The position numbers and the translations under genes are program-made. Of a DNA stretch of 64,000 nt, positions 25,996 to 62,434 are shown in pieces (the stretch's first letter is position 1; the number at the start of each line of letters is the position of its first letter). The DNA is taken from contig AP026544.2 of assembly GCA_026075535.2 (NCBI GenBank), positions 6,448,001-6,512,000 of the forward strand, written 5' to 3'. Below the pieces are notes generated by a model, which did no database searches, was not told the DNA's origin, and worked only from the letters and a program-made list of their open reading frames with translations. This DNA comes from Tricholoma matsutake (Eukaryota > Basidiomycota > Agaricomycetes > Agaricales > Tricholomataceae).

Positions 25996-26118
25996 CAGGT
26001 GAAAGAGCAATAAGTTTTTCTGCTACAGAATCAAAATGTGAGCTTTTCACAGTAAAATATGTCTGAAGATGAGCCATCCTACGTTCAATAATGTTCCATA
26101 CAACAAATATGAAGGAAT
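25996..26118 (-). pseudogene. Helitron Rep/helicase-like fragment, middle part
   Basis: The minus strand reads FIFVVWNIIERRMAHLQTYF then VKSSHFDSVAEKLIALSPDL with no stop. It continues in frame into 17418-17219 when the solo LTR/Gy2 insertion is ignored, and upstream into 33310-33252 when TRIM1 is ignored. The pattern F-x-F-V ... RR ... F-x-S-V-A resembles the region before the PGS motif in Helitron Rep proteins. Confidence 0.5.
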
Positions 26119-26367
26119 TGTTGGATTATATAATCTGTCACTGCTTAATCAGTGCTTAACAGACCATAGTTTGCACACACACACAAGTGATGTGATAGTT
26201 GTAGCAATCCATGTCTGGTTATATGGTATCCTTGTTCTGTTGAACCTGTAAGGGGAACACCTTACGAGCCCCTACAATGGTTGGCGCACATTTGCAAACA
26301 TTTCTGCACACCCACAAACATTCGCGCAACAAAGCACCTTTTTGCGCAAAGAGGCGCCTTTTGCACC

Positions 26368-26793
26368 TGTAAGGGGACTAGGGGGGTGCCCTGTGTGTTT
26401 TTCCTATTTTTTATGTTCGTCCCATATTTTTCCCCACCTCATTTCCTTCTATTCTTCATTTTCTATGATTTTTCCGGATTTTATTACTAATTTTCCCTTG
26501 CTATCATGTTTGTATATGTTGACACTTTTATATTTAGAGGCGGAGTACCCCTTCCAACACATACCCCTTGGTATGATGTCATTCGGCGGCCTTGATCCGC
26601 CTATCTCCGCCTTTTTCTATTTTTAGGTTATATTTGATTTTTGTCGTCTTCACATATACTGGGCATCAGCAAGGGGATCCTTAGAGTTTTCTCTTCGGAT
26701 TTCCCTTTGCTAGGTGCGCCCCCAATGCCTGTATTATGTAGTATAATTTTAACTTCGGATTTCCCTTTGCTAGAGGTTTAGGTTGCCCTTATA
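26368..26793 (+). repeat. Gy3 5' LTR
   Basis: Starts TGTAAGGGGACTAGGGGG, ends GGTTGCCCTTATA. It contains the 10-mer AGAGTTTTCT (26683-26692) that is complementary to the primer site after the LTR. Confidence 0.95.
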
Positions 26794-26795
26794 GT

Positions 26796-26805
26796 AGAAA
26801 ACTCT
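26796..26805 (+). other. Gy3 self-priming site
   Basis: AGAAAACTCT lies two nt after the LTR end and is the exact reverse complement of AGAGTTTTCT at 26683-26692 in the LTR. Tf1 of fission yeast primes from the 5' end of its own RNA in this way. The LTR 10-mer would then mark the transcript 5' end, about 25-45 nt below ATATTTG/CATATAC TATA-like runs. No tRNA match seen. Confidence 0.65.
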
Positions 26806-26959
26806 CCCCTAAGGCCCGAAAATCGCGAACGCGCTGCCCAAAATAGGCAGGTACGGACTGGACGACGCTTCCCAAAGCTCCACAGAGTCCCTACACACCG
26901 TTCCAGATACTCTCGCCTTTATTGCGCTGCCATTTTCGCCAAACGCGCTCCCTAGCGAC

Positions 26960-28078
26960 ATGGACGCATCAGAACGCTTCGACGCGCTTGAAAGCAACGT
27001 TTCCGGAATGCATGCGCAAATCGACTCGCTTAAATCTACGATTGAAAACTTCGTTAGGACCCTCCAGGCTAACCCTACGACTAATAGTTCCCCCTTCACG
27101 ACTCCAAGCGCACCCAACAACGATGTTTTGCCAAACGCGTCCACTAAGGAACGTGCCCAGATCAAACCGTCCCCCCCCGCCGAATTTAATGGTGCACGTG
27201 CGCAGGGACGTGCATTCCTTAATTCCTGTGAGTTATACATTAGTCTCCAGTCGCATCAATTCGTCGATGAGGCTGCAAAAATTTATTGGGCCTTCACATA
27301 CATGAAATCTGAACGCGCCTATCTCTATGTGGACCGTATCCTACGTCAAACTAAAGAACTCGGTTCTCTACCTTTCTCCACTTGGGGGGACTTTTGAGCT
27401 GAGTTCGTACGCCACTTCTGCCCCCTCAATGAACGCCACCGAGCAGTGACACGACTTGAGTCATCCACTTACCACCAGGGACGTCGATCCGTGGACGACT
27501 ATATCGATGAGTTCAAGGATTTGGTGGACATGGCAGGGTATGGGCGTGGGTTACCAGTGGTGGTGAAGTTCCGACGGGGGCTCAACCGAGAAATTCAGGA
27601 CCAGATTGCACAGATGTTGGAAGGGCGCCCAGCGGACGATGATATCCTTGCTTGGTATGAAGCTGCTTCACTCTGTGACGAGAACCGACTCACAAATGCG
27701 GCGTTTAATGCTGCATTCCGTGCTCCAACTACCACTCATACACCCTACACCTTCAATCGAAGCCTCCCCCGCCCTAACCCCATTCCTCCTCGTCAAACTC
27801 CCACACCAGCCGTCAATATCCCAGTACCAATGGATGTTGATGCAGCCTGCAGCCGTGCACGTAAGTTGGATCTCTGCTACCGTTGTGGGGAACCTGGACA
27901 CAGGGCTGGAGCGTGTCCCCATCGTCAGGATATCCGCATGCTCACCCCCGAGGGACGAGACGAACTCCTGCAAGATCTGTTGGCACTTGTAGATGTTGAG
28001 GAAGCGAAGGATCAAGTTGCAGAGGAGGTTAAGCTGGAAGTTGTAGAGGAGCAGGATTTTCCTATTCGCAGCGAGTGA
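26960..28078 (+). pseudogene. Gy3 gag (one premature TGA)
   Basis: Starts ATG 26960 (MDASERFDALESNVSGMHAQ). A coiled N-terminal part is followed by a retrotransposon gag domain (PAEFNGARAQGRAFLNSCEL ... WAFTYMKSERA) and a zinc knuckle CYRCGEPGHRAGAC. TGA at 27395-27397 interrupts DF-stop-AEF, where related copies would have Arg; apart from this the frame is open to TGA 28076-28078. Pol lies one frame away and overlaps by a GTGA step at the gag stop, so pol expression probably uses a frameshift or reinitiation. Confidence 0.88.
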
Positions 28079-31000
28079 ATTGTACGCCCTCACTGCCTGT
28101 CCATAACCGCTTTGAAGTCTTGTCAGTTGAATCCCTGGAGAATGAATCCATTTCTGTGACTGCTCCCCTCTCTGACCCTTCGAAGTTGGCTAAAGACGTA
28201 CCTGCTCTCCCCATCTCTCCTTCTACTCCACATCCCAAAATTAAATCATGGGAGCGTAAACTACCACGCAAGTATATTGTGGCATCCACTCCCTCTGCAC
28301 ATTCCTTAAACCTAGCCATCGAACTGCAGACGACCGACACTGGACAGATACTCGGTGTTTCTGCGCTCCTGGACTCTGGTGCGACTGGTCTCTTCATCGA
28401 TTCCCATCTGGTACAACAACATCGTCTAAATACTCGCTCACTCTCACGTCCGATACCTGTATATAACGTGGATGGATCCCCAAATGAAGCTGGTGCCATC
28501 TGAGAGGTTGCAGACCTGGTTCTCCGTTACAAAGATCATAGTGAGCGTGCCCTTTTTGCTGTCACTCAATTAGGAAAGCAAAAGGCGATTTTGGGATATC
28601 CATGGCTTCGAGACCATAACCCAGAGGTCGACTGGCGCACCGGGGAGGTTACCATGAGCCGATGTCCATCCCGCTGTTGGACGTGTTTCACAGAAGCCAG
28701 GCAAGAACGTCGTGGACAGAAGGCGGCAATACGACGAACTCAGAAGTGTCGTGCTGGACCCCTGCCTATACCTGAAGTGGAATTGGAAGGGGTTCCTGAT
28801 CTAATGCCGGACTCGGATGATGATGATGAGGACCCAGAGGAAGTGGAGGAGGGTGATCGGATCTTCTACACTGCGATTCGCTCATCGCATGAGGTGTGTG
28901 CCACATCGAACATATCCCAACGCCTCGCCGAGGCCTTCCACAAAAACAACGCTGCTAAATCCTCTACTAACTCCTTACTCCCTCATCTCCATGAGTTTGA
29001 AGACGTGTTCTCCAAGGAGTCATTTGACTCTCTTCCTGCGCGTAAGCCATGGGATCACGCGATCGAACTCACCCCCGGCGCAACCCCTTCATCCTGCAAG
29101 GTCTATCCTCTCTCTCCGGAGGAACAACGGCAGCTTGACCAGTTCATCGACGAGCACCTGGCCTCTGGACGTATTCGACCATCGAAGTCACCCATGGCCT
29201 CTCCCTTTTTCTTTGTCAAGAAGAAGGATGGCTCACTTCGACCGGTTCAAGACTACAGAAGACTCAACAACATCACGGTCAAAAATCGCTACCCACTACC
29301 CCTCATCTCCGAACTCGTAAACCAGCTCCGTGGAGCCCGATACTTCACCAAGCTCGATGTCCGTTGGGGCTATAATAATGTGAGGATAAAGGAGGGAGAT
29401 GAGTGGAAGGCAGCCTTTCGTACCAACCGTGGTCTTTTTGAACCGCTTGTCATGTTCTTTGGCCTTACTAATAGCCCTGCCACCTTTCAGACCATGATGA
29501 ACGACATCTTCCATGACCTCATCCTCGAAGGCGTTGTCTGCATCTATCTCGACGACATCCTCATCTTCACTCGCACGGTTGAAGAGCACCGTCGCATCAC
29601 GCGCCTCGTCCTAGAGCGACTTCGACGGTACAAACTCTACCTTCGTCAGGACAAATGCGAGTTCGAAAGGACCAAGATCGAGTACCTCGGCCTGATTATC
29701 TCGGAGGGTCAAGTGGAGATGGATCCTATCAAGGTAAATGGGGTCACAGCTTGGCCTACGCCCACGAACAAGAAGGAGGTGCAGTCTTTCCTGGGCTTCA
29801 TCAATTTTTATCGGCGTTTTATCAAGGATTTCTCACATCATGCACGACCGCTGTTCGACTTGACAGGAAAGGAGGCATGGAGGTGGGATAATGCACAACA
29901 GGAGGCGTTCGAAAAGCTTAAGGAGATGGTCACTTCCGCTCCGATCCTTACCTTTGCTGACGATTCGCGTCCTTTTCGTGTAGAAGCCGACAGTTCTGAC
30001 TTTGCGACGGGCGCTGTGTTGTCTCAGCAGTCTCCGGAGGACCAGAAGTGGCATCCTGTTGCGTTCTACTCCAAAAGCCTTAGTGCTGTAGAGAGAAACT
30101 ACGAGATCCATGACAAGGAGATGTTGGCGATAATGCGTGCGCTTGAGGAGTGGCGACACTTCCTCGAGGGTGCCCAACACAAGGTGGAAATTTGGACGGA
30201 TCACAAGAACCTCGAGTACTTCATGACGGCCAAGAAATTGAACCGTCGTCAAGCTCGTTGGTCCCTGTATCTATCTAGATTCGACTTCTCCTTGCACCAC
30301 CGTCCGGGTCGCAGCATGGGGAAGACCGATGCCCTATCCCGACGTGCAGACCATGGGGATGGCAGCGGTGACAACCAAAACATTGTGCTGTTGCAGCCAG
30401 ACCTGTTCACCATTCGGGCACTGGAAGGCATCGTACCCCAGGGCGAGGAGTGGGACATTCTACGTGACATTCGTCGCGCAAACCGTAGCGGTTTACATGA
30501 GGATGTTGTCGCCCGAGCTGTTAAAGAACTGAGGAAGGGATCGACCCTTTCCTTACGTGCGGCAGAGTGGGCTGAAAAGGAGGACTTGTTGTATTTCAGG
30601 GATCGCATCTATGTTCCCAATGACCCAGACCTTCGCCGGCGCATCATATCCCAACACCATGACTCACAGATTGCTGGCCACCCCGGATGCTGGAAGACCT
30701 TGGAGCTCACCTCACGGAACTATTGGTGGCCACAAATGTCACGGCTCATTGGTCAGTATTGTCGCACTTGTGACCTTTGCTTACGCACCAAGGTCCCTCG
30801 TCGCAAGCCTATTGGTGAGCTACACCCTCTTCCTGTTCCAGAGAGTCGTTGGGATGTCGTCAGCATCGACTTTGTGGTGGAATTGCCAGAGTCAAACGGG
30901 TTTGATGCGGTGATGTGCACAGTTGACTCAGTGGGAAAACGCGCTCACTTCATTCCCACTCACACCACTGTCAGTGCCCTAGGTGCCGCTCGACTCTACC

Positions 31001-31977
31001 TCCACCACGTGTGGAAGTTACATGGACTTCCTGGTGCCTTCCTCTCGGATCGTGGCCCTCAGTTCATGGCAGAGTTCACTCGTGAGCTGTACCGACTCCT
31101 GGGGATCAAACTCCTCGCTTCAACTGCTTATCACCCACAAACTGATGGCCAGACGGAGCGAGTCAACCAGGAACTGGAGCAGTACATCCGCCTCTTTGTC
31201 AATGAACGCCAGGACGATTGGGATGATCTCCTTCCTTTGGCCGAGTTCGGATACAACAACCATGTCCATGCTTCCACTCAACAGACCCCTTTCCTCTTAG
31301 ACACTGGACGACATCCACGCATGGGATTTGAACCTCGCCAAACTCCCTCACACATCGAGACAGTGAATGAGTTCACAGAACGCATGAGGGATAGCTTGGA
31401 GGAGGCAAGGGCAGCCTTAGCAAAGGCGAAGGACGACATGGCGCGATTTTACAACCAGCGCCACTCCCCAACCCCTCAGTACAAGGTTGGTGATCAAGTT
31501 TATCTTGACTCCAGTGACATCTCCACTACACGTCCATCCAAGAAACTCGCTCATCGCTTCTTGGGACCTTTCCCCATTGTCAAGTGCGTTGGAACACATG
31601 CCTATCGTCTACGCCTCCCAGCCTCCATGTCCAGACTCCATCCCGTCTTCCATGTCGTCAAATTGCTTCCAGCTCCCCCAGATCCGTTCCCGGGACGCCA
31701 TTCACACCCACCACCACCACCTACAGTGATCGAGGGAGAACCCCAATATGAAGTCGAGTCAATCTTGGACAGCCGTTTGCGTCGAGGAAAACTCCAGTAT
31801 TTGGTACATTGGAAGGGTTATGGGTATGAGGAGAACTCATGGGTCGAAGAGTCTGACGTAAATGCCCCTCGGTTAATCAAGGAATTCCACCGACGGCACA
31901 CTGCTGCACCGCGTCGCATTCAAGTCACGGACTTTGGTCGTATACGATTTCGAATGCATCGGGGCGATGCATCTTAG
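28075..31977 (+). pseudogene. Gy3 pol: protease, RT, RNase H, integrase, chromodomain (one TGA)
   Basis: A continuous frame of about 1300 residues with a single TGA at 28501-28503 (GAI-stop-EVADL, where CGA/Arg fits). Protease: LDSGATGLFIDSH. RT: PFFFVKKKDGSLRPVQDYRR, KLDVRWGYNNV and the intact catalytic CIYLDDILIF. RNase H: VEADSSDFATGAVLSQ and WTDHKNLEYF. Integrase: zinc part (HDSQIAGHPG ... CRTCDLCLR) and the triad in SIDFVVELP, SDRGPQF and TERVNQELEQ. The C-terminal chromodomain (YEVESILDSRLRRGKLQYLV) suggests targeting to H3K9-methylated chromatin. All catalytic residues I can identify are present, so it is almost functional. Confidence 0.93.
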
Positions 31978-31988
31978 AGAAGGGGTGA

Positions 31989-32414
31989 TGTAAGGGGACT
32001 AGGGGGGTGCCCTGTGTGTTTTTCCTATTTTTTATGTTCGTCCCATATTTTTCCCCACCTCATTTCCTTCTATTCTTCATTTTCTATGATTTTTCCGGAT
32101 TTTATTACTAATTTTCCCTTGCTATCATGTTTGTATATGTTGACACTTTTATATTTAGAGGCGGAGTACCCCTTCCGACACATACCCCTTGGTATGATGT
32201 CATTCGGCGGCCTTGATCCGCCTATCTCCGCCTTTTTCTATTTTTAGGTTATATTTGATTTTTGTCGTCTTCACATATACTGGGCATCAGCAAGGGGATC
32301 CTTAGAGTTTTCTCTTCGGATTTCCCTTTGCTAGGTGCGCCCCCAATGCCTGTATTATGTAGTATAATTTTAACTTCAGATTTCCCTTTGCTAGAGGCTT
32401 AGGTTGCCCTTATA
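31989..32414 (+). repeat. Gy3 3' LTR
   Basis: Nearly identical to the 5' LTR; the visible differences are single G/A or C/T changes (for example CCGACAC versus CCAACAC, CTTCAGAT versus CTTCGGAT). Followed by GCACC. Confidence 0.95.
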
Positions 32415-32865
32415 GCACCAACCATCTACAAACATTCTGATATGTCAATCCATCAGCCCCTATTGTACTCTCACCATTCTCGCAGTCAATACCCTGCAGA
32501 AATGATCAAGGATGTCTTCGCATGCCCATTACCAATCATGGCCTGATGCGGACACCACTTACCAAGTATGGCCTGATGCGGACACTATCACTGATTGATG
32601 GCCATCTCCCCAAATGGGAACACAACCCTGGATCTGAATTAGTGCTAGGATGGAAGGGGCTCCAAGTATTTTAGAACGTCGCATGCCTTCCATATATATA
32701 CTTTGGCCTTGCACTGGGCTCCTTAGAGTTTTCTCTTTGGTTTTCCCTTGCAAGATATGGGTCTTTCCTTGTTCAATAGTTATTGAATCTAATCTTTGGT
32801 TTTCCCTTGCAAGTATTGAGTTCTTAGGACTCTGATTGTAAGGTTGCCCTTACAGAACCCTATAA

Positions 32866-32939
32866 GACCTGATAGCTCAGTTGGTCAGAGCATCTGGTAT
32901 ATGTCCAGGAGGGCCTGGGTTCAATCCCCAGTCTGGTCA
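32866..32939 (+). tRNA. tRNA-like unit inside TRIM1 5' LTR
   Basis: A 74-nt segment folds as a full cloverleaf: acceptor GACCTGA with TCTGGTC (one T-T mismatch) plus discriminator A; D arm GCTC/GAGC; anticodon stem TCTGG/CCAGG with the 7-nt loop TATATGT; 5-nt variable loop; T arm CTGGG-TTCAATC-CCCAG. Internal Pol III boxes are intact (TAGCTCAGTTGG and GGTTCAATCC) and a TTTT terminator follows at 32942-32945. Position 33 is A instead of the universal U, and the nominal anticodon TAT would be Ile, so translation use is doubtful. Present in both LTRs, hence part of the element. Confidence 0.75.
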
Positions 32940-32959
32940 TCTTTTCTGCATTCCTAACA

Positions 32960-33026
32960 GGTTATGGGCCCTGGCACTTCTGTCAGATTACCTGAGCAGA
33001 TTAAGATGTGCCAGATTAAGGGGGTG
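32960..33026 (+). other. TRIM1 internal region (67 bp)
   Basis: Primer site GGTTATGGGCCCTGG at the left end (initiator tRNA-Met anticodon-arm complement) and a purine tract ATTAAGGGGGTG at the right end. A 7-bp stem CTGGCAC/GTGCCAG spans most of the rest. No ORF. Confidence 0.85.
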
Positions 33027-33246
33027 TGTTGGATTATATAATCTGTCACTGCTTAATCAGTGCTTAACAGACCATAGTTTGCACACACACACAAGTGATG
33101 TGATAGTTGTAGCAATCTGTGTCTGGTATCCTTGTTCTGTTGAACCCTATAAGACCTGATAGCTCAGTTGGTCAGAGCATCTGGTATATGTCCAGGAGGG
33201 CCTGGGTTCAATCCCCAGTCTGGTCATCTTTTCTGCATTCCTAACA
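33027..33246 (+). repeat. TRIM1 3' LTR
   Basis: Starts TGTTGGATTATATAATC, ends CATTCCTAACA, followed by the duplication GGAAT. Holds the second tRNA-like unit at 33153-33226. Confidence 0.9.
33153..33226 (+). tRNA. tRNA-like unit inside TRIM1 3' LTR
   Basis: Same 74-nt sequence as 32866-32939, again followed by TTTT at 33229-33232. Same A33 and the same acceptor mismatch. Confidence 0.75.
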
Positions 33247-33251
33247 GGAAT

Positions 33252-54650: not shown

Positions 54651-54665
54651 ATAATACAGACCCTC

Positions 54666-55108
54666 TATAAGGGCAACCTTAGAGGCCACTTAATTAATGG
54701 ACTAGCAAAGGGAAATCCAAAGTTAAAATTATAGTACATATTACAGGGATTGGAGGCATACCTAGCAAAGGGAAATCCAAAGAGAAAACTCTAAGGACCC
54801 CTTTGCCAATGCCCAGTACATATATGTGAAGACTACAAAAATCAAATAATAACCTAAAAATAGAAAGGTGGAGATAGGCAGATCAAGGCTGCTGAATAAC
54901 ATCATACCAAGGGGTAGATGTCAGAAAGGGTACTCTGCTTCTAAATATAAAACTGTCAACATGTACAAATGTGATAGAAAGGAAAATTAGTAATAAAATA
55001 AGGAAAAATCATAGAAAATGAAGAATAGAAGGAAATGAAGTGAGGAAAAATATAGGACAAACGTAAAAAATAGGAGAAACACACAGGGCACCCCCTAGTC
55101 CCCTTACA
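54666..55108 (-). repeat. Gy4 3' LTR (left in window)
   Basis: Reads TATAAGGGCAACC ... CCCTTACA on the plus strand. Contains AGAGTTTTCT-equivalent sequence and an extra segment (GGCCACTTAATTAATGG) not in the Gy3 LTR but also in the other Gy4 LTR. Confidence 0.9.
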
Positions 55109-56311
55109 TCACCTCCTCTCTAAGATGCATTGCCCTGGTGCATTCAAAATCACATACGACCAAAGTCAGTGACTTGAATGCGACACAGTGCAGCAGTGTG
55201 CCATCAGTGGAATTCCTTGACTAACTGAGGGGTGTTCACATCGGACTCCTCAACCCATGAGTTCTCCTCATACCCATAACCCTTCCAGTGCACCAAATAC
55301 TGGAGTTTTCCTCAACACAACCGGCTGTCCAAGATTGACTCGACTTCATACTGGGGTTCTCCCTCAATCACTGTAGGCAGTGGTGGTGGATGTGAATGGC
55401 ATCCTGGGAATGGATCTGGGGGAGCTGGAAGGAGTTTGACGACATGGAAGACTGGGTGGAGTCTGGACATGGAGGCTGGGAGGTGCAGACAATAGGCATG
55501 CATTCCAACACACTTGACAATGGGAAAAGGTCCCAGGAAGCAATGGGCAAGTTTCTTGGATGGATGTGTGGTGGAGATGTCACTGGAGTCAAGATAAACT
55601 TGATCACCAACCTTGTACTGAGGGACCAGAGAATGGTGTTGATTGTAAAAGCACACTGTGTCATCCTTCGCCTTCACTAAGGCTGCCTTTGCCTCCTCCA
55701 AGCTATCCCTCATGTGTTCTGTGAACTTATTCACCGTCTCAATGTGTGAGGGAGTTTGGAAGGTTTGAATCCCATGTGTGGATGCTGTCCAGTACCTAAG
55801 AGGAAAGGGGTTTGTTGAGTGGAAGCATGGACATGGTTGTTGTACCCAAACTCAGCCAAGGGGAGAAGATCGTCCCAATTGTCCTGGTGCTCATTGACAA
55901 AGATGCAGATGTACTGCTCTAGTTCCTGGTTGACTCACTCAGTCTGGCTGTCAGTTTGCGGGTGATAGGTGGTCAAAGCAAGGAGTTTGATCCCCAGAAG
56001 TTGGTACAGCTCATGAGTGAACTCCACGAACTGAGGGCCATGGTCAGAAAGGAAGGCGCCAGGAAGTCCATGTAATTTCCACACATGGTGGAGATAGAGT
56101 TGGGTGGCACCCAGGGTGCTGACAGTGGTGTGAGTGGGAATAAAGTGAGCATGTTTCCCCACTGAATCAACTGTGCACATCACTGCATGAAACCCATTCA
56201 ACTCTGGCAGCTCCACCACAAAGTCAACACTGACAACATCCCAATGACTCTCTGAAACAGGAAGAGGGTGTAGCTCGCCAATGGGTTTGTGATGAGGAAT
56301 CTTGGTGCATA

Positions 56312-56562
56312 TGTCACAAAATTATGTAATGCAGTATAACCTAATATGACCCACGTGACCCACATAACTGCCATAACCCATTAAAATCGACACTCAGAAC
56401 TGATGTTAAGCTAGCTACCAAGTCTTGGGTTCAGTTCAATAATGTAGTTTACATATGTAGGTAATAGATTTTCCACATTAGGGCCCAGTATACTAGCTGA
56501 GAGGGAGTGATAATCCACATATAATCTAGGTGAGGTTATAATGCCATCCGGAAATTTCCGAC
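56312..56562. other. 250-bp insertion in Gy4 integrase region
   Basis: Between CTTGGTGCATA and CATAAGCAAAGG, where Gy3 is continuous. The insert runs from TGTCACAAAATTATG to GGAAATTTCCGACA. Only CATA or TA is duplicated. It keeps some CpG, so it is later than Gy4 decay. Unclassified. Confidence 0.5.
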
Positions 56563-59247
56563 ATAAGCAAAGGTCACAAGTACAACAATACTGACCAATG
56601 AGCCATGACATTTGTGGCCACCAATAATTCCATGAGGTGAGCTCCAAGGTCTTCCAGCATCCAGGATGACCAGCAATCTGTGAGTCATGGTGTTGGGATA
56701 TGATGTGCCGGTGAAGGTCTGGGTTGTTGGGGACATAGATGCAATCCCTGAAATACAACAAGTCCTTGTGCATGCAAGGAAAAGGTGGATCCCCTCCTCA
56801 GTTCTTTAACAGCTTGGGCAACAACATCCTCATGTAAACCACTACGGTTTGCATGATGAATGTCGCATAGGATGTCCTGCTCCTTGCCCTGGGGTGCAAT
56901 GCCTTCCAATGCCCAGATGGTGAACAGGTCTGGCTGCAATAACACAATGTCTTGATTGTCATTGCTGCCATCCCCATGGTCTGCATGTCAGGAGAGGGCA
57001 TCAGTCTTCCCCATGCTGTGACCCAGACAGTGGTGCAAGGAGAAGTCAAATCTGGATAGATATAGGGACCAACGAGCTTGACGACAGTTCAATTTCTTGG
57101 CCATCATAAAGTACTTGAGATTATTGTGATCTGTCCAAATTTCCACCTTGTGTTGGGCACCCCTGAGGAAATGTTGCCATTCCTCAAGTGCATGCATTAT
57201 TGCCAACATCTCCTTATCATGGATCTCATAGTTTCGCTCCACAGCACTAAGGCTCTTGGAGTAGAATGCAACAGGATGCCACTTCTGGTCCTCCGGAGAC
57301 TGCTGAGACAACATGGTGCCCAGCACAAAGTCAGAACTGTTGGCTTCTACACGAAAAGGGTGCGAGTCATCAGCAAAGATAAGAATGGGAGCAGAAGTGA
57401 CCATCTCCTTAAGCTTTTCAAATGCCTCCTGATGTGCATTATCCCACCTCCATGCCTCCTTTCCTGTCAAGTTGAACAGTGGTCATGCATGATGTGAGAA
57501 ATCCTTGATAAAACGCTGATAGAAATTGATGAAGCCCAGGAAAGACTGCATCTCTTTCTTGTTTGTGGGTGTTAGCCAAGCCGTGACCCCATTCACCTTG
57601 ATAGGATCCATCTCCACCTGACCATGTGAGATAATTAGGCTGAGGTACTCGATCTTGGTCTTCTCAAACTTGCACTTGTCATGACAAAGATAGAGTTTGT
57701 ACTGTTGAAGTCATTCCAGGATGAGGCATGTGATGCAATGGTGCTCTTCAACCATGTGAGTGAAGATGAGGATGCCATCGAGATAGATACAAACAACACC
57801 TTTGAGGATGAGGTCATGGAAGATGTCATTCATCATGGTCTGCAAGGTGGCAGGACTATTAGTAAGGCCAAAGAACATGACAAGCAGTTCAAACAAGGTT
57901 CAAAAAGACCATGGTTGGTATGAAAGGCTGCCTTCCACTCATCTCCCTCCTTTATCCTCACATTATTGTAACCCCAACAGACATTGAGCTTGGTGAAGTA
58001 TCGGGCTCCATGGAGCTGGTTCACAAGTTTGGAGATGAGAGGTAATGGGTAGTGATTTTTCACCATGATGTCATTGAGCCTTCTGTAGTCTTGAACCAGT
58101 CAAAGTGAGCCATCCTTCTTCTTGACAAAGAAAAAGGGAGAGGCCATGGGTGACTTCAATGGTCAAATATGTCCAGAGGCCAGGTGCTCATTGATGAACT
58201 GGTCAAGCTGTCACTGTTCTTCAGGAGAGAGTAGATAGACCTTGCAGGATAAAGGGGTTGCACCAGGGGTGAGTTCAATCACGTGATCCCATGGCTTGCA
58301 CGCAGGGAGAGAGTTGAACAATTCCTTGGAGAACACATCCCCAAACTCATGGAGATGAGGAAGCAAGGAATCAGTAGAGGATTTAGCAGCATTATTTTTG
58401 TGGAAGGCCTCAGTGAGGCGTTGGGATATGTTTGATGTAGCACACACCTCGTGCGATGGACAAATCACAGTGTAGAAGATCTGATCACCTTTCTCCACTT
58501 CCTCTGGCTCCTCCTTGTCATCATCTGAGTCCAGCATCAGATCAGGAACCCCCTCTAACTCCACCTCAGGCACAGGCAGGGGTCCAGCATGACACTTCCG
58601 AGTGCATTGTACTGAGGCCCTTTGTCCATAGTGTTCTTGTCTGGCTTCCGTGAAACAAGTGCTACAGCGGGATGGAACTGGCTCATTGTAACCTCCCTGG
58701 TATGCCAGTTGACCTCTGGGGTATGGTCTCAAAGCCACAGATAGCCCAAGATCACCTTCTGCTTTCCTAACTGAGTGACAGAAAAAAGGGCAAAATCACT
58801 ATGATCTTTGTAATGGAGGACCAGGTCTACATAGTGTTTAAAGGTCCAGTCTATAGGACCAAAAAAAGACTGTTAACTGAACCTAACCAGACAGATATTA
58901 ACTGGACCAGCAGTTACAATTAAGGGCTGGTCTTTAGCAGTTAAGGTTAAGGTCTTTCAAATTTGAAAAACATTGTTAACCACAAAAAGACCAGTTTCAA
59001 TTGGTTAAGACCGGTTATTGATCATGTAAGCTATCTCATATAATTGCCCTGCTTATTACCTTAAATTTGGTTCTTGGTTCATCCAAAACGGTCAAGAACT
59101 GAGAAAGATGTGACCAAATACATTTTGATACCATGATATTTTTGTGATCAGCATAACATTGATTGTACTGCTTATAGGTTGTGCTACAAAATGTGGGACA
59201 TCATCCATGACATCAAAATAACACACATAAACATCTGTACACTGTAT

Positions 59248-59418
59248 CACTACTGGGGCTGACCTGTGTTTCCCACAGAAACACAGCCAAAAGTGCAGTG
59301 TATTAGTTTGCAGTTTGCGGTTGCAGTTTGCAGTATGTACTTACAACTTGTCAGGGCTGTTAAATGAATGAAATATACACTACTGGGGCTGACCTGTGTT
59401 TCCCACAGAAACACAGCC
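59248..59418. repeat. Two 41-bp direct repeats
   Basis: 59248-59288 and 59378-59418 are identical; each contains CTGACCTGTGTTTCCCACAG and then GAAACACAG, itself a small hairpin (CTGTGTTTC/GAAACACAG). The second copy abuts the left arm of the palindrome. Confidence 0.85.
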
Positions 59419-59998
59419 TTAGAAACTTGTTTTAAGACTTCTGATGTGTATATCCTTTGGATATTCTTAATATGTATGTAAAAGAAATGTCAGGGAAATA
59501 TTTTACATGCATCCAAGCTGTATCTGCAAGGAACATAAAAGGTGTATTCTACAATGTTTCTTTCAGATCCCTTCTGGAAACATTTGTCATGTTCCCTTTG
59601 TATAAGTTAAAGAAACACTTTTTGTGTAATCAGGCCTGTATCTGCAGAAAACATTTAACATGTAATTTTATTATGTGTTTCCTAGGGATACATGTGTAAC
59701 CATGGTAACCCCTTTGTTCTCTGCATATATCCATAGAAAACACATAATAAGATATATGTCAAGTGTTTTCTGCAGATACAGCCATAATTACATAAAAAGT
59801 GTTTCCTTAACTTACACAAAGGGAACATTAAAAATGTTTCCAGAAGGGATCTGAAAGAAACATTGTAGAATACACCTTTTATGTTCCTTGCAGATACAGC
59901 TTGGATGCATGTAAAATATTTCCCTGACATTTCTTTTACATACATATTAAGAATATCCAAAGGATATACACATCAGAAGTTTTAAAACAAGTTTCTAA
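59419..59998. repeat. About 580-bp near-perfect foldback palindrome
   Basis: Left arm from TTAGAAACTTG and right arm to CAAGTTTCTAA are reverse complements over about 285 bp, with the centre near 59708. Both strands therefore encode the same open stretch (MDILNMYVKEMSGKYFTCIQ...), which is a by-product of the symmetry. Arms differ at scattered positions. Confidence 0.88.
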
Positions 59999-60714
59999 TT
60001 ACAATTTCTATTTCTCTGCCTAATGGTCAAGTGTTTGGGGTAATACTCATTGAGATACATATAGGTTGTATAGTACAACAAATTTCACAACAAAAAACTG
60101 GTCTTAACCAGTCTTTTTTCAGTCCATTAACAGAAAAAGACTGGTCTTAGTCAGTCTGGTTAGGTCCTCCCAATGTCTGGGTCTGTCCTAGACTGGTTAC
60201 AGTTATGGTCTACCCATTGTAGGGTCAAAAAATTGAACCTAACCTAACCTTAAAACACTAGGTCTACAACCTCTCAGATGGCACCAACTTCATTTGGGGA
60301 CACATCCACATTATAAACAGGTATCAGACACAAGAGTGAGCAAGTATTCAGGTGATGTTGTTGTGCAAGATGGGCATCAATGAAGAGACCAGTCACACCA
60401 GAGTCCAGGAGTCCAGAGACACCAAGTATCTGTCCAGTGTCGGTAGTCTGTAGTTTCATTGCTAGGTTCAATGAATGTGTAGAGGGAGTGGATGCAACAA
60501 TATATTTGTGTGGTAGTTTGCACTCCCATGATTTAATTTTGGGATGTGGGGCAGAGGGAGAGATAGGAAGAGCAGGTACATCTTCAGCCAACTTTGAAGG
60601 GTCAGAGAGGGGAACAGTCATGGAATTAGATTCATTCTCCAGGGATTCAACTGACAAAACTTCAAAGTGGTTATGGACATGCAACAAGGGCATATGATTC
60701 ACTTGCTGCAAATA

Positions 60715-61824
60715 GAAAAATCCTGCTCCTCTACAACTTCTGACTTGATCTCCTCTGCAACCTGATCCTTCACTTCCTTGACATCTACAAGTGCCAACAG
60801 GTCCTGGAGGAGTTCATCTCACCCCTCAGGGGTGAGCATGCAGATATCCTGATGAGGGGGACACACTCTGGCCATGTGCCCAGTTTCCCCACAGTGGTAG
60901 CAGAGATCCAACCTATGTGCATGGCTACAGGTTGCATCAACATACATTGATGATTGGTACAGGGACATTGATGGCTGGTGGGGGAGTCTGACAGACAGGA
61001 ATGGGGTTATGCTGGGGGAGGGTTCAATTGAAGGTGTAGGGCACATGAGTGGTAGTTGGAGCACAGAATGCAGTGTTAAACACCACATTTGTGAGTCAGC
61101 TCTCATCACAGAGTGAAGCAGCTTCATACCAAGCATAGATGTCATCATCTTCCAGGCGCCCTTCCAACATCTGTGCAATCTGGTCCTGAATCTCTTGATT
61201 GAGGCCCCGTTGGAACTTCACCACAACTGGTAGCCCACTCCCATATCCTGCCATGTCCACCAAATCCTTAAACCCGTCGATATAATCGTCCACAGATTGA
61301 CGTGCCTGATGGTAAGAGGATGACTCAAGCCATGTCACTGCTCAGTGGCACTCATTGAGGGGGCAAAAGTGGCATATGAACTCTGCTTGAAAGTCACCCC
61401 AAGTGGAGAAAGATAGATAACCAAGCTCTTTGGTTTGGCACAGAATACGGTCCACATAGAGATAGGCATGTTCAGATTTCATGTATGTGAAGGCCCAATT
61501 AATTTTTGCAGCATTGTCGATGAATTGATGTGACTGGAGACTGATGTACAACTCACAGGAATTAAGGAATGCATGCCCCTGTGCATGAGCACCATTAAAT
61601 TTGGCAGGGGGGGACAGTTTGATCTGGGCACACTCCTTAGTGGGTGGATTAGGTGGCGCATCGTTATTGGGTGCGCTTGGAGTCACAATGGGGGGAATAT
61701 TGGTTGTGGAGCTAGTCTGAAGGGTTCTGATGAAGTTTTTGATCGTAGATTTAAGCGAATCAATTTGCGTGCATATTCCAGTAACATTGTTTTCAAGTGC
61801 ATTGAGGCACTCTGATGTGTCCAT
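60715..61824 (-). pseudogene. Gy4 gag (decayed)
   Basis: Starts ATG 61824 (MDTSECLNALENNVTGICTQ, equivalent to the Gy3 gag start). The gag domain (PAKFNGAHAQGHAFLNSCEL) and zinc knuckle (CYHCGETGHMARVC) are still visible, with Arg to His/Cys changes and frame breaks near 61340 and 61100. Confidence 0.85.
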
Positions 61825-61989
61825 GGCACTAGGGGGCACGTTAAGCAAAAATGGTGGTGCACTGCAGGTGGGACTGTTGGGAATGGTGTGTAGGGAGTCT
61901 ATGGAGCTTTGGGAAGTGTCGTCCACTCCATACCTGCCTATCTTGGGCAGCACATTCACAATTTTGGGCCTTAGGAGAGTGTTTTCTAC

Positions 61990-62434
61990 TATAAGGGCGA
62001 CCTTAGAAGCCACTTAATTAATGGACTAGCAAGGGGAAAGTTAAAATTATGGTACATATTACAGGGAGTGGAGGCACACCTAGCAAAGGGAAATCCAAAG
62101 AGAAAACTTCAAGGATCCCTTTGCCAATGCCCAGTATATGTGAAGATTGCAAAAATCAAATAATAGTCTAAAAATAGAAATAGGCAGAAATAGGCAGATC
62201 AAAGCTGCCAAATGACATCATACCAGGGGTAGATGTTGGAAGGGGTACTCCACCTCTAAATATAAAACTGTCAACATGCACAAATGTGATAGAAAGGAAA
62301 ATTAGTAATAAAATAAGGAAAAATCATAGAAATGAAGAATAGAAGGAAATGAAGTGAGGAGAAATATAGGAGAAATATAACAAATAGGAGAAACACACAG
62401 GGAACCCCCCTGAGTCCCCCCTAGTCCCCTTACA
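61990..62434 (-). repeat. Gy4 5' LTR (right in window)
   Basis: About 445 bp, ends CCCCTTACA on the plus strand (TGTAAGGGG at the LTR start). The primer site below it reads AGAAAACACTCT, i.e. the Gy3 site with two extra bases. Confidence 0.9.

Follow-up and report, generated by a model that had tools for sequence, protein, structure and literature searches.

A Helenus-type miniature retrotransposon family of Tricholoma matsutake with a tRNA-like unit and a predicted weak RNA polymerase III stop in each terminal repeat

A gene transcribed by RNA polymerase III (Pol III) lying within the long terminal repeat (LTR) of a retrotransposon brings its own stop signal, yet a full-length template is required; how can such an element obtain one? 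The question is raised by a terminal-repeat retrotransposon in miniature (TRIM) found in a 64,000-nucleotide stretch of the Tricholoma matsutake genome, hereafter called the window, which sits on contig C7 of assembly TMA_r1.1 (161,040,721 bases, 13 contigs). The element is almost certainly a copy of a Helenus-type family. Helenus comprises TRIMs with a tRNA-like sequence in the LTR, named by Kojima in 2024 and present also in Agaricomycetes (PMC10886601). The type of element is not new; new are this T. matsutake family and its weak-looking stop signal. The explanation preferred here, held with somewhat more belief than doubt, is that of a Helenus TRIM moved by Copia-type proteins, in which the tRNA-like unit would act both as Pol III promoter and as terminal repeat R. 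Many near-identical copies with a defined weak stop make the question of the full-length template testable in a fungus.

The copy in the window extends over positions 26119..33246 of the forward strand, between GGAAT target duplications at 26114..26118 and 33247..33251. The 5' LTR (LTR1) measures 228 bp and is divided by nested insertions; sequence alignment assigns to it a first part, U3 (26119..26246), and a second part containing the tRNA-like unit and U5 (32860..32959). It is followed by a non-coding interior of 67 bp (32960..33026) and by the 3' LTR (LTR2) of 220 bp (33027..33246), the two LTRs differing by two substitutions and eight gap columns. The interior opens with the primer-binding site GGTTATGGGCCC (32960..32971) and closes, immediately 5' of LTR2, with the polypurine-tract-like stretch AGATTAAGGGGGTG (33013..33026). 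A similar stretch precedes the 3' LTR in a second family described below (AAGGGGGTG in the window, GGGGGAGTG in one full element of that family). All coordinates given for the LTRs, the interior and the duplications in the preliminary description of this DNA hold.

Each LTR carries a tRNA-like unit of 74 nt (32866..32939 in LTR1 and 33153..33226 in LTR2) with an A box TAGCTCAGTTGG, a B box GGTTCAATCC and the outline of a cloverleaf. Both units are called tRNA-Ile(TAT) by ARAGORN and score 56.3 bits (E 1.8e-9) with the Rfam tRNA model RF00005, whose gathering score of 29 was used as the unit cut-off; in the Rfam search of the window only this model reached its gathering score. A run of TTTT begins 2 nt past the end of the unit and is followed by CT (TTTT at 32942..32945 and 33229..33232), forming a presumed weak Pol III terminator. 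The boxes and the nearby TTTT had been noticed earlier and are confirmed; the earlier view that the unit is derived from a tRNA but does not decode fits what is seen. Residue 33 is A in the Rfam alignment, one acceptor pair is T-T, and the unit is 68% identical to the sole tRNA-Ile(TAT) gene retrieved, a gene of 95 nt that seems to contain an intron, and 75% identical to tRNA-Ile(AAT).

The LTR with its unit is repeated throughout the genome. When up to three mismatches are allowed, a 25-mer of the D arm occurs at 208 places and the 25-mer of the LTR start at 219, while the reversed pattern of each occurs at none; the unit-bearing LTR family lies far beyond chance occurrence. The interior gave 39 matches (39 of 39 candidates scored), and this small number set against about 210 LTR places suggests that solo or broken LTRs make up most of the insertions. 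None of the 39 exceeds 74 bp, and no longer version of the interior was seen among them, a search which an autonomous element sharing the ends alone would escape. Duplications of 5 bp with at most one mismatch flank 48 of 75 insertion records, the other 27 including broken copies and single 3' LTRs. The number of independent insertions is below 75, since segmental duplicates are present among the records (the duplications TATTT, GTCAT and TGAAA each flank two records on contig C1). In the 11 LTR pairs of which neither member is broken, 1-7 substitutions are seen over 220-230 bp.

Several copies of the family are arranged unusually. Locus L082/L083 (C2:6781011-6783650) is an LTR-interior-LTR-interior-LTR array with an interrupted middle LTR and CATTC at both outer ends, resembling the tandem arrays of Cassandra. 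At L094 (C3:232824-233283) two LTRs stand head to head with 9 bp separating their starts. The element at L116 (C4:6825964-6826478) is flanked by matching CTACT duplications and its two LTRs have differing end types, which suggests gene conversion.

The preservation of the unit within this family (family 1) was assessed in two sets of copies. The first contained 60 regions chosen solely by an exact LTR-start 25-mer: of the 219 places 100 were listed, all of them exact, and from these every place on C1-C3 and those on C4 as far as 9.51 Mb were taken. The unit exceeds the Rfam cut-off in 51 of them (15/20, 19/20 and 17/20); of the remaining nine, two have an LTR truncated behind the D arm, two retain only 29-30 bp of it and five have changes within the unit. 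The second set consisted of 89 full LTRs, after exclusion of 12 partial matches: 68 from C1-C4, at least four of these added by LTR or tRNA similarity, and 21 made up of the best BLAST matches and the window, a portion biased to conserved copies. Of these 89, 75 combine an A box, a B box and TTTT within 12 nt; taken singly, the A box is present in 86, the B box in 79 and the TTTT in 84. The units fall into 34 distinct sequences, 50 units being identical. An exact 27-mer of the unit had no match in viral_contigs.

A second family was met in the Rfam search of the genome, which also gave four solo LTRs of about 259 bp with the duplications AAAAT, GAAAC, AAAAT and GGCTT. Searching with one of these LTRs yielded at least 43 matches (40 of 228 candidates scored); 24 of them span roughly two thirds of the LTR or more, and several others are family-1 units. 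One full element (L122) possesses the duplication AATGG, the same primer site GGTTATGGGCCC and an interior of 144 bp. Compared with LTR2 of the window, an LTR of family 2 (L042) is 80% identical over the first 25 bp and 93% identical in the unit. The between-family alignment score of the unit is 126, against a mean of -7.0 (sd 7.2, maximum 17) in 500 shuffles, whereas the rest of U3 scores -2 (500 shuffles: mean -20.7, sd 9.0, maximum 6) and is barely alignable. Judged by these alignments, the unit is the best-kept part of the LTR between families 1 and 2. Five unit differences separate the families: the D loop has two of them and the variable loop one, and the remaining two lie in stems, where both preserve pairing (A-U to G-U and G-U to A-U). 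Of the 23 family-2 rows, two incomplete ones were left out of the counts of boxes and changes (n=21) and four out of the terminator count (n=19); the A box, B box and TTTT occur together in 14 of 21 units.

Directly behind the unit stands TC-TTTT-CT in 81 of the 89 family-1 LTRs, and TTTT-CA in 18 of 19 LTRs of family 2. Ten tRNA genes, called by ARAGORN outside these LTR families among the fetched loci, served for comparison. Their first run of at least four T comprises 5-7 T in seven cases; the three T4 runs continue with GT, AC or AT and never as TTTT-C, and CT or CA is found only behind runs of 6, 6 and 7 T. According to a review, four T are enough for termination by human Pol III, five for that of S. 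pombe and six for that of S. cerevisiae; in S. cerevisiae a CT after a run of five T weakens termination (PMC5356446). Since TTTT-CT is absent from the ten ordinary tRNA genes and the review relates the strength of the stop to the T-run, the LTR terminator is predicted to leak.

These features can be combined into a mechanism in which the unit would probably be the internal Pol III promoter of the element, a role read from its sequence. Pol III would initiate just 5' of the unit in the 5' LTR, pass the weak TTTTCT stop behind it, continue through the primer site, interior and U3, and halt at the identical weak stop in the 3' LTR. The terminator would fail often in the 5' LTR and still function in the 3' LTR, and the fraction of polymerases halting at the first one would leave a by-product of about 80 nt. 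The unit, placed at both ends of the genomic RNA, would constitute the terminal repeat R, with the short segment behind it as U5. The presumed transcript of 373 nt is not unusually stable on folding (z -1.28; 9 of 100 shuffles equally stable). Between unit and primer site the longest run of pairing is 8, G-U included; Kojima reports no complementarity in his Helenus families (PMC10886601). A more far-reaching proposal, offered tentatively, is that a single unit may serve as promoter, whole terminal repeat and 3' end, that TTTT-CT may be kept weak by selection, and that such units may account for the inflated tRNA-Ile(TAT) counts in Tricholoma genomes too. If this is true, a selected weak stop would be to Pol III what the bypassed 5' poly(A) site is to retroviruses.

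A number of observations weigh against this explanation. Four T suffice for termination in human (PMC5356446), and T4 is used by three of the ten sampled tRNA genes, which form a small sample with two near-identical pairs; the family copies with which they are compared are not independent of each other. The path between the two terminators is free of TTTT over 283 nt in family 1 and 399 nt in family 2, but a purge of TTTT from it is not significant, since 52% and 25% of dinucleotide shuffles, respectively, and 16% and 5% of single-base shuffles lack TTTT as well. The cloverleaf is not favoured by single-strand folding of the unit (z -0.20; 83 of 200 shuffles at least as stable), whose minimum free energy structure is a different fold. 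Constraint on the unit was not detected within family 1, where U3 (97 sites) has 35 private and 13 shared changes and the unit (74 sites) 19 and 14 (unit vs U3, p = 0.16). In family 2, U3 (139 sites) has 40 private and 24 shared changes and the unit (74 sites) 32 and 8, the density of private changes being if anything higher in the unit, and the B box is retained in only 15 of 21 units. A test of whether the cloverleaf is kept by compensatory changes had been suggested; at this depth its outcome is negative within family 1, where 12 of 26 distinct stem changes keep the pair and 11.8 are expected. By these counts, individual copies decay like neutral DNA within families. The 93% identity of the units between families could reflect constraint on the amplifying lineages, but exchange of the module would fit it equally. 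Loss of the unit from other copies, or its decay there like neutral DNA, had been named earlier as what would refute the idea, and on this the result is divided: the unit is kept in most regions sampled and is best kept between the families, while single copies drift neutrally.

Among the other explanations, the one with most to be said for it is that Pol II makes the genomic RNA from U3, the unit yielding a short TTTT-ended Pol III RNA or remaining silent, either hitchhiking or keeping the locus open. The terminator directly behind the unit, present in 84 of 89 LTRs, should block any long Pol III RNA if it is efficient, T4 is a stop also for some of the sampled tRNA genes, and Pol II is expected for the autonomous partners (PMC10886601). 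U3, from which Pol II would start, is however poorly preserved from one family to the other, unlike the unit, and none of the ten sampled tRNA genes has TTTT followed by C; this course of events is considered possible but rather unlikely. An accidental origin, by which a tRNA gene or SINE (short interspersed nuclear element) landed in one LTR and was copied by chance without any role, is highly improbable. It would agree with the missing constraint within the family, and a SINE insertion has been proposed by Kojima as the origin of such units (PMC10886601), but the unit persists in 51 of 60 regions and recurs, with boxes and terminator, in a second family whose U3 can hardly be aligned. A one-off copy of a tRNA gene was rejected on the same two grounds.

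The units might also be working tRNA-Ile(UAU) genes, spread by the transposon and supplying the tRNA pool of the host, which would suit the tRNA call by both ARAGORN and Rfam and the 50 identical units out of 89. A33 in place of U33, the T-T acceptor mismatch, the low identity to the sole retrieved tRNA-Ile(TAT) gene with its apparent intron and the decay of copies without preservation of pairs leave this notion scarcely credible; a decoding tRNA-Ile gene was rejected by residue 33, the acceptor mismatch and the pair-keeping count given above. It had also been proposed that the unit attracts or repels integrases, and as a bait or shield for the Pol III-directed integrases of other elements it is very improbable. 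A solo LTR nested in LTR1 ends 11 bp upstream of the unit (6 bp past its own duplication), and the LTR at C5:7295643-7296100 is interrupted inside the unit (query ~157-161) by an inverted sister LTR, but the other broken copies stop near LTR positions 29, 30 and 40; the breaks are few, scattered and without a null model, and the proposal found no support. Nor was any support gained for the unit as an RNA chaperone or export signal.

The primer-site string AACANGTTATGNGCCCTNGC, allowing two mismatches, occurs at 919 places in the genome, its reversed pattern at two. One place outside the Helenus families was fetched (L121): it has LTRs of 196 bp, the same primer site and a Copia-type gag frame with the domains Retrotran_gag_2 (8.5e-29), Pol_BBD and zf-CCHC. 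The Helenus-type TRIM is very probably moved by Copia-type proteins. The L121 element itself (L121:282-2307), about 2 kb long and with an open gag frame between its LTRs, the second of which lies about 1.8 kb downstream, looks gag-only. The complement of the primer site, GGGCCCATAACC, resembles what we take to be the spliced anticodon arm of the initiator tRNA, iMet (putative arm GGGCCCAUAACC), and a half-tRNA-iMet primer would presumably fit. The uninterrupted pattern of the iMet arm has no match in the genome, a result to be expected from a gene with an intron at that point. An iMet anticodon-arm primer is dominant in fungal Helenus (PMC10886601).

The interruption of LTR1 in the window is composed of further retroelements, so that three layers are nested: a Gypsy element inside a 556-bp solo LTR inside LTR1 of the TRIM. 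The solo LTR is split into a left part (26247..26367) and a right part (32420..32854), both on the forward strand, and is flanked by GAACC duplications, the left within LTR1 (26242..26246) and the right at 32855-32859. The Gypsy element (26368..32414, forward strand) comprises 6047 bp with the duplication GCACC, encodes a chromodomain and has two 426-bp LTRs (26368-26793 and 31989-32414) with three differences. Its element and LTR lengths equal those of marY1 (PMC10211490), a likeness by length alone. Stretches similar to this Gypsy element are found on the opposite strand at about 54665-62419 of the window, and a self-complementary stretch of about 580 bp (91%) lies at 59419-59998.

Among known systems, the published Helenus elements are closest to the matsutake family. 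They share with it the TRIM form, the tRNA-like LTR sequence with A and B boxes, 5-bp duplications in fungi, a Copia-related primer site and a polypurine tract (PMC10886601). In many Helenus families the tRNA isotype disagrees with the anticodon, and the promoter role for Pol III has been proposed there, a functional promoter being described as not yet validated (PMC10886601). A difference concerns the stop signal: the word 'terminator' is used once in the main text of that paper, for Cassandra alone, and a stop behind the unit is not treated there under that word. No report of Helenus in Tricholoma was found in the literature searched, and 'Tricholoma' is absent from the main text of PMC10886601. 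The label of the unit bears on annotation in this genus. In T. bakamatsutake 275 of 277 tRNA-Ile genes have the anticodon TAT, for which the available text gives no explanation (PMC10627285); because the matsutake units carry the same tRNA-Ile(TAT) label, a sister Helenus family probably lies behind this count. A literature search on the subject yielded, apart from that paper, only one on morel mitochondria. The tRNA annotation of agaric genomes can count transposons.

The remaining systems differ in the small RNA or in the architecture. SINEs derived from tRNA are short, non-coding and equipped with an internal A/B-box promoter, whereas the matsutake element has two LTRs, 5-bp duplications, a primer site and a polypurine stretch; the LTRs and duplications led to rejection of a SINE identity. 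Ajax of nemerteans is likewise a TRIM whose LTR holds a Pol III-type small-RNA fragment (PMC10886601), the fragment being partial 5S rRNA and the host an animal. In plants, each LTR of the TRIM Cassandra contains a Pol III small-RNA unit complete with terminator (PMC7215508), and the preliminary description had seen in the window element its fungal counterpart. The presence of a tRNA-shaped Pol III-type unit in TRIM LTRs stands, while the parallel as such had already been published as Helenus (PMC10886601). Identity with Cassandra was rejected, as the tRNA model (RF00005), and no 5S rRNA model, reached its gathering score in the window. Cassandra RNA is described as running from the 5S unit in the 5' LTR to that in the 3' LTR, with end repeats of 18 bp (PMC10886601); in the matsutake element, in contrast, the end repeat would be the whole unit of about 80 nt. 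The weak stop, as the means by which the 5' terminator would be bypassed, is what this family contributes beyond the published models of Cassandra and Helenus.

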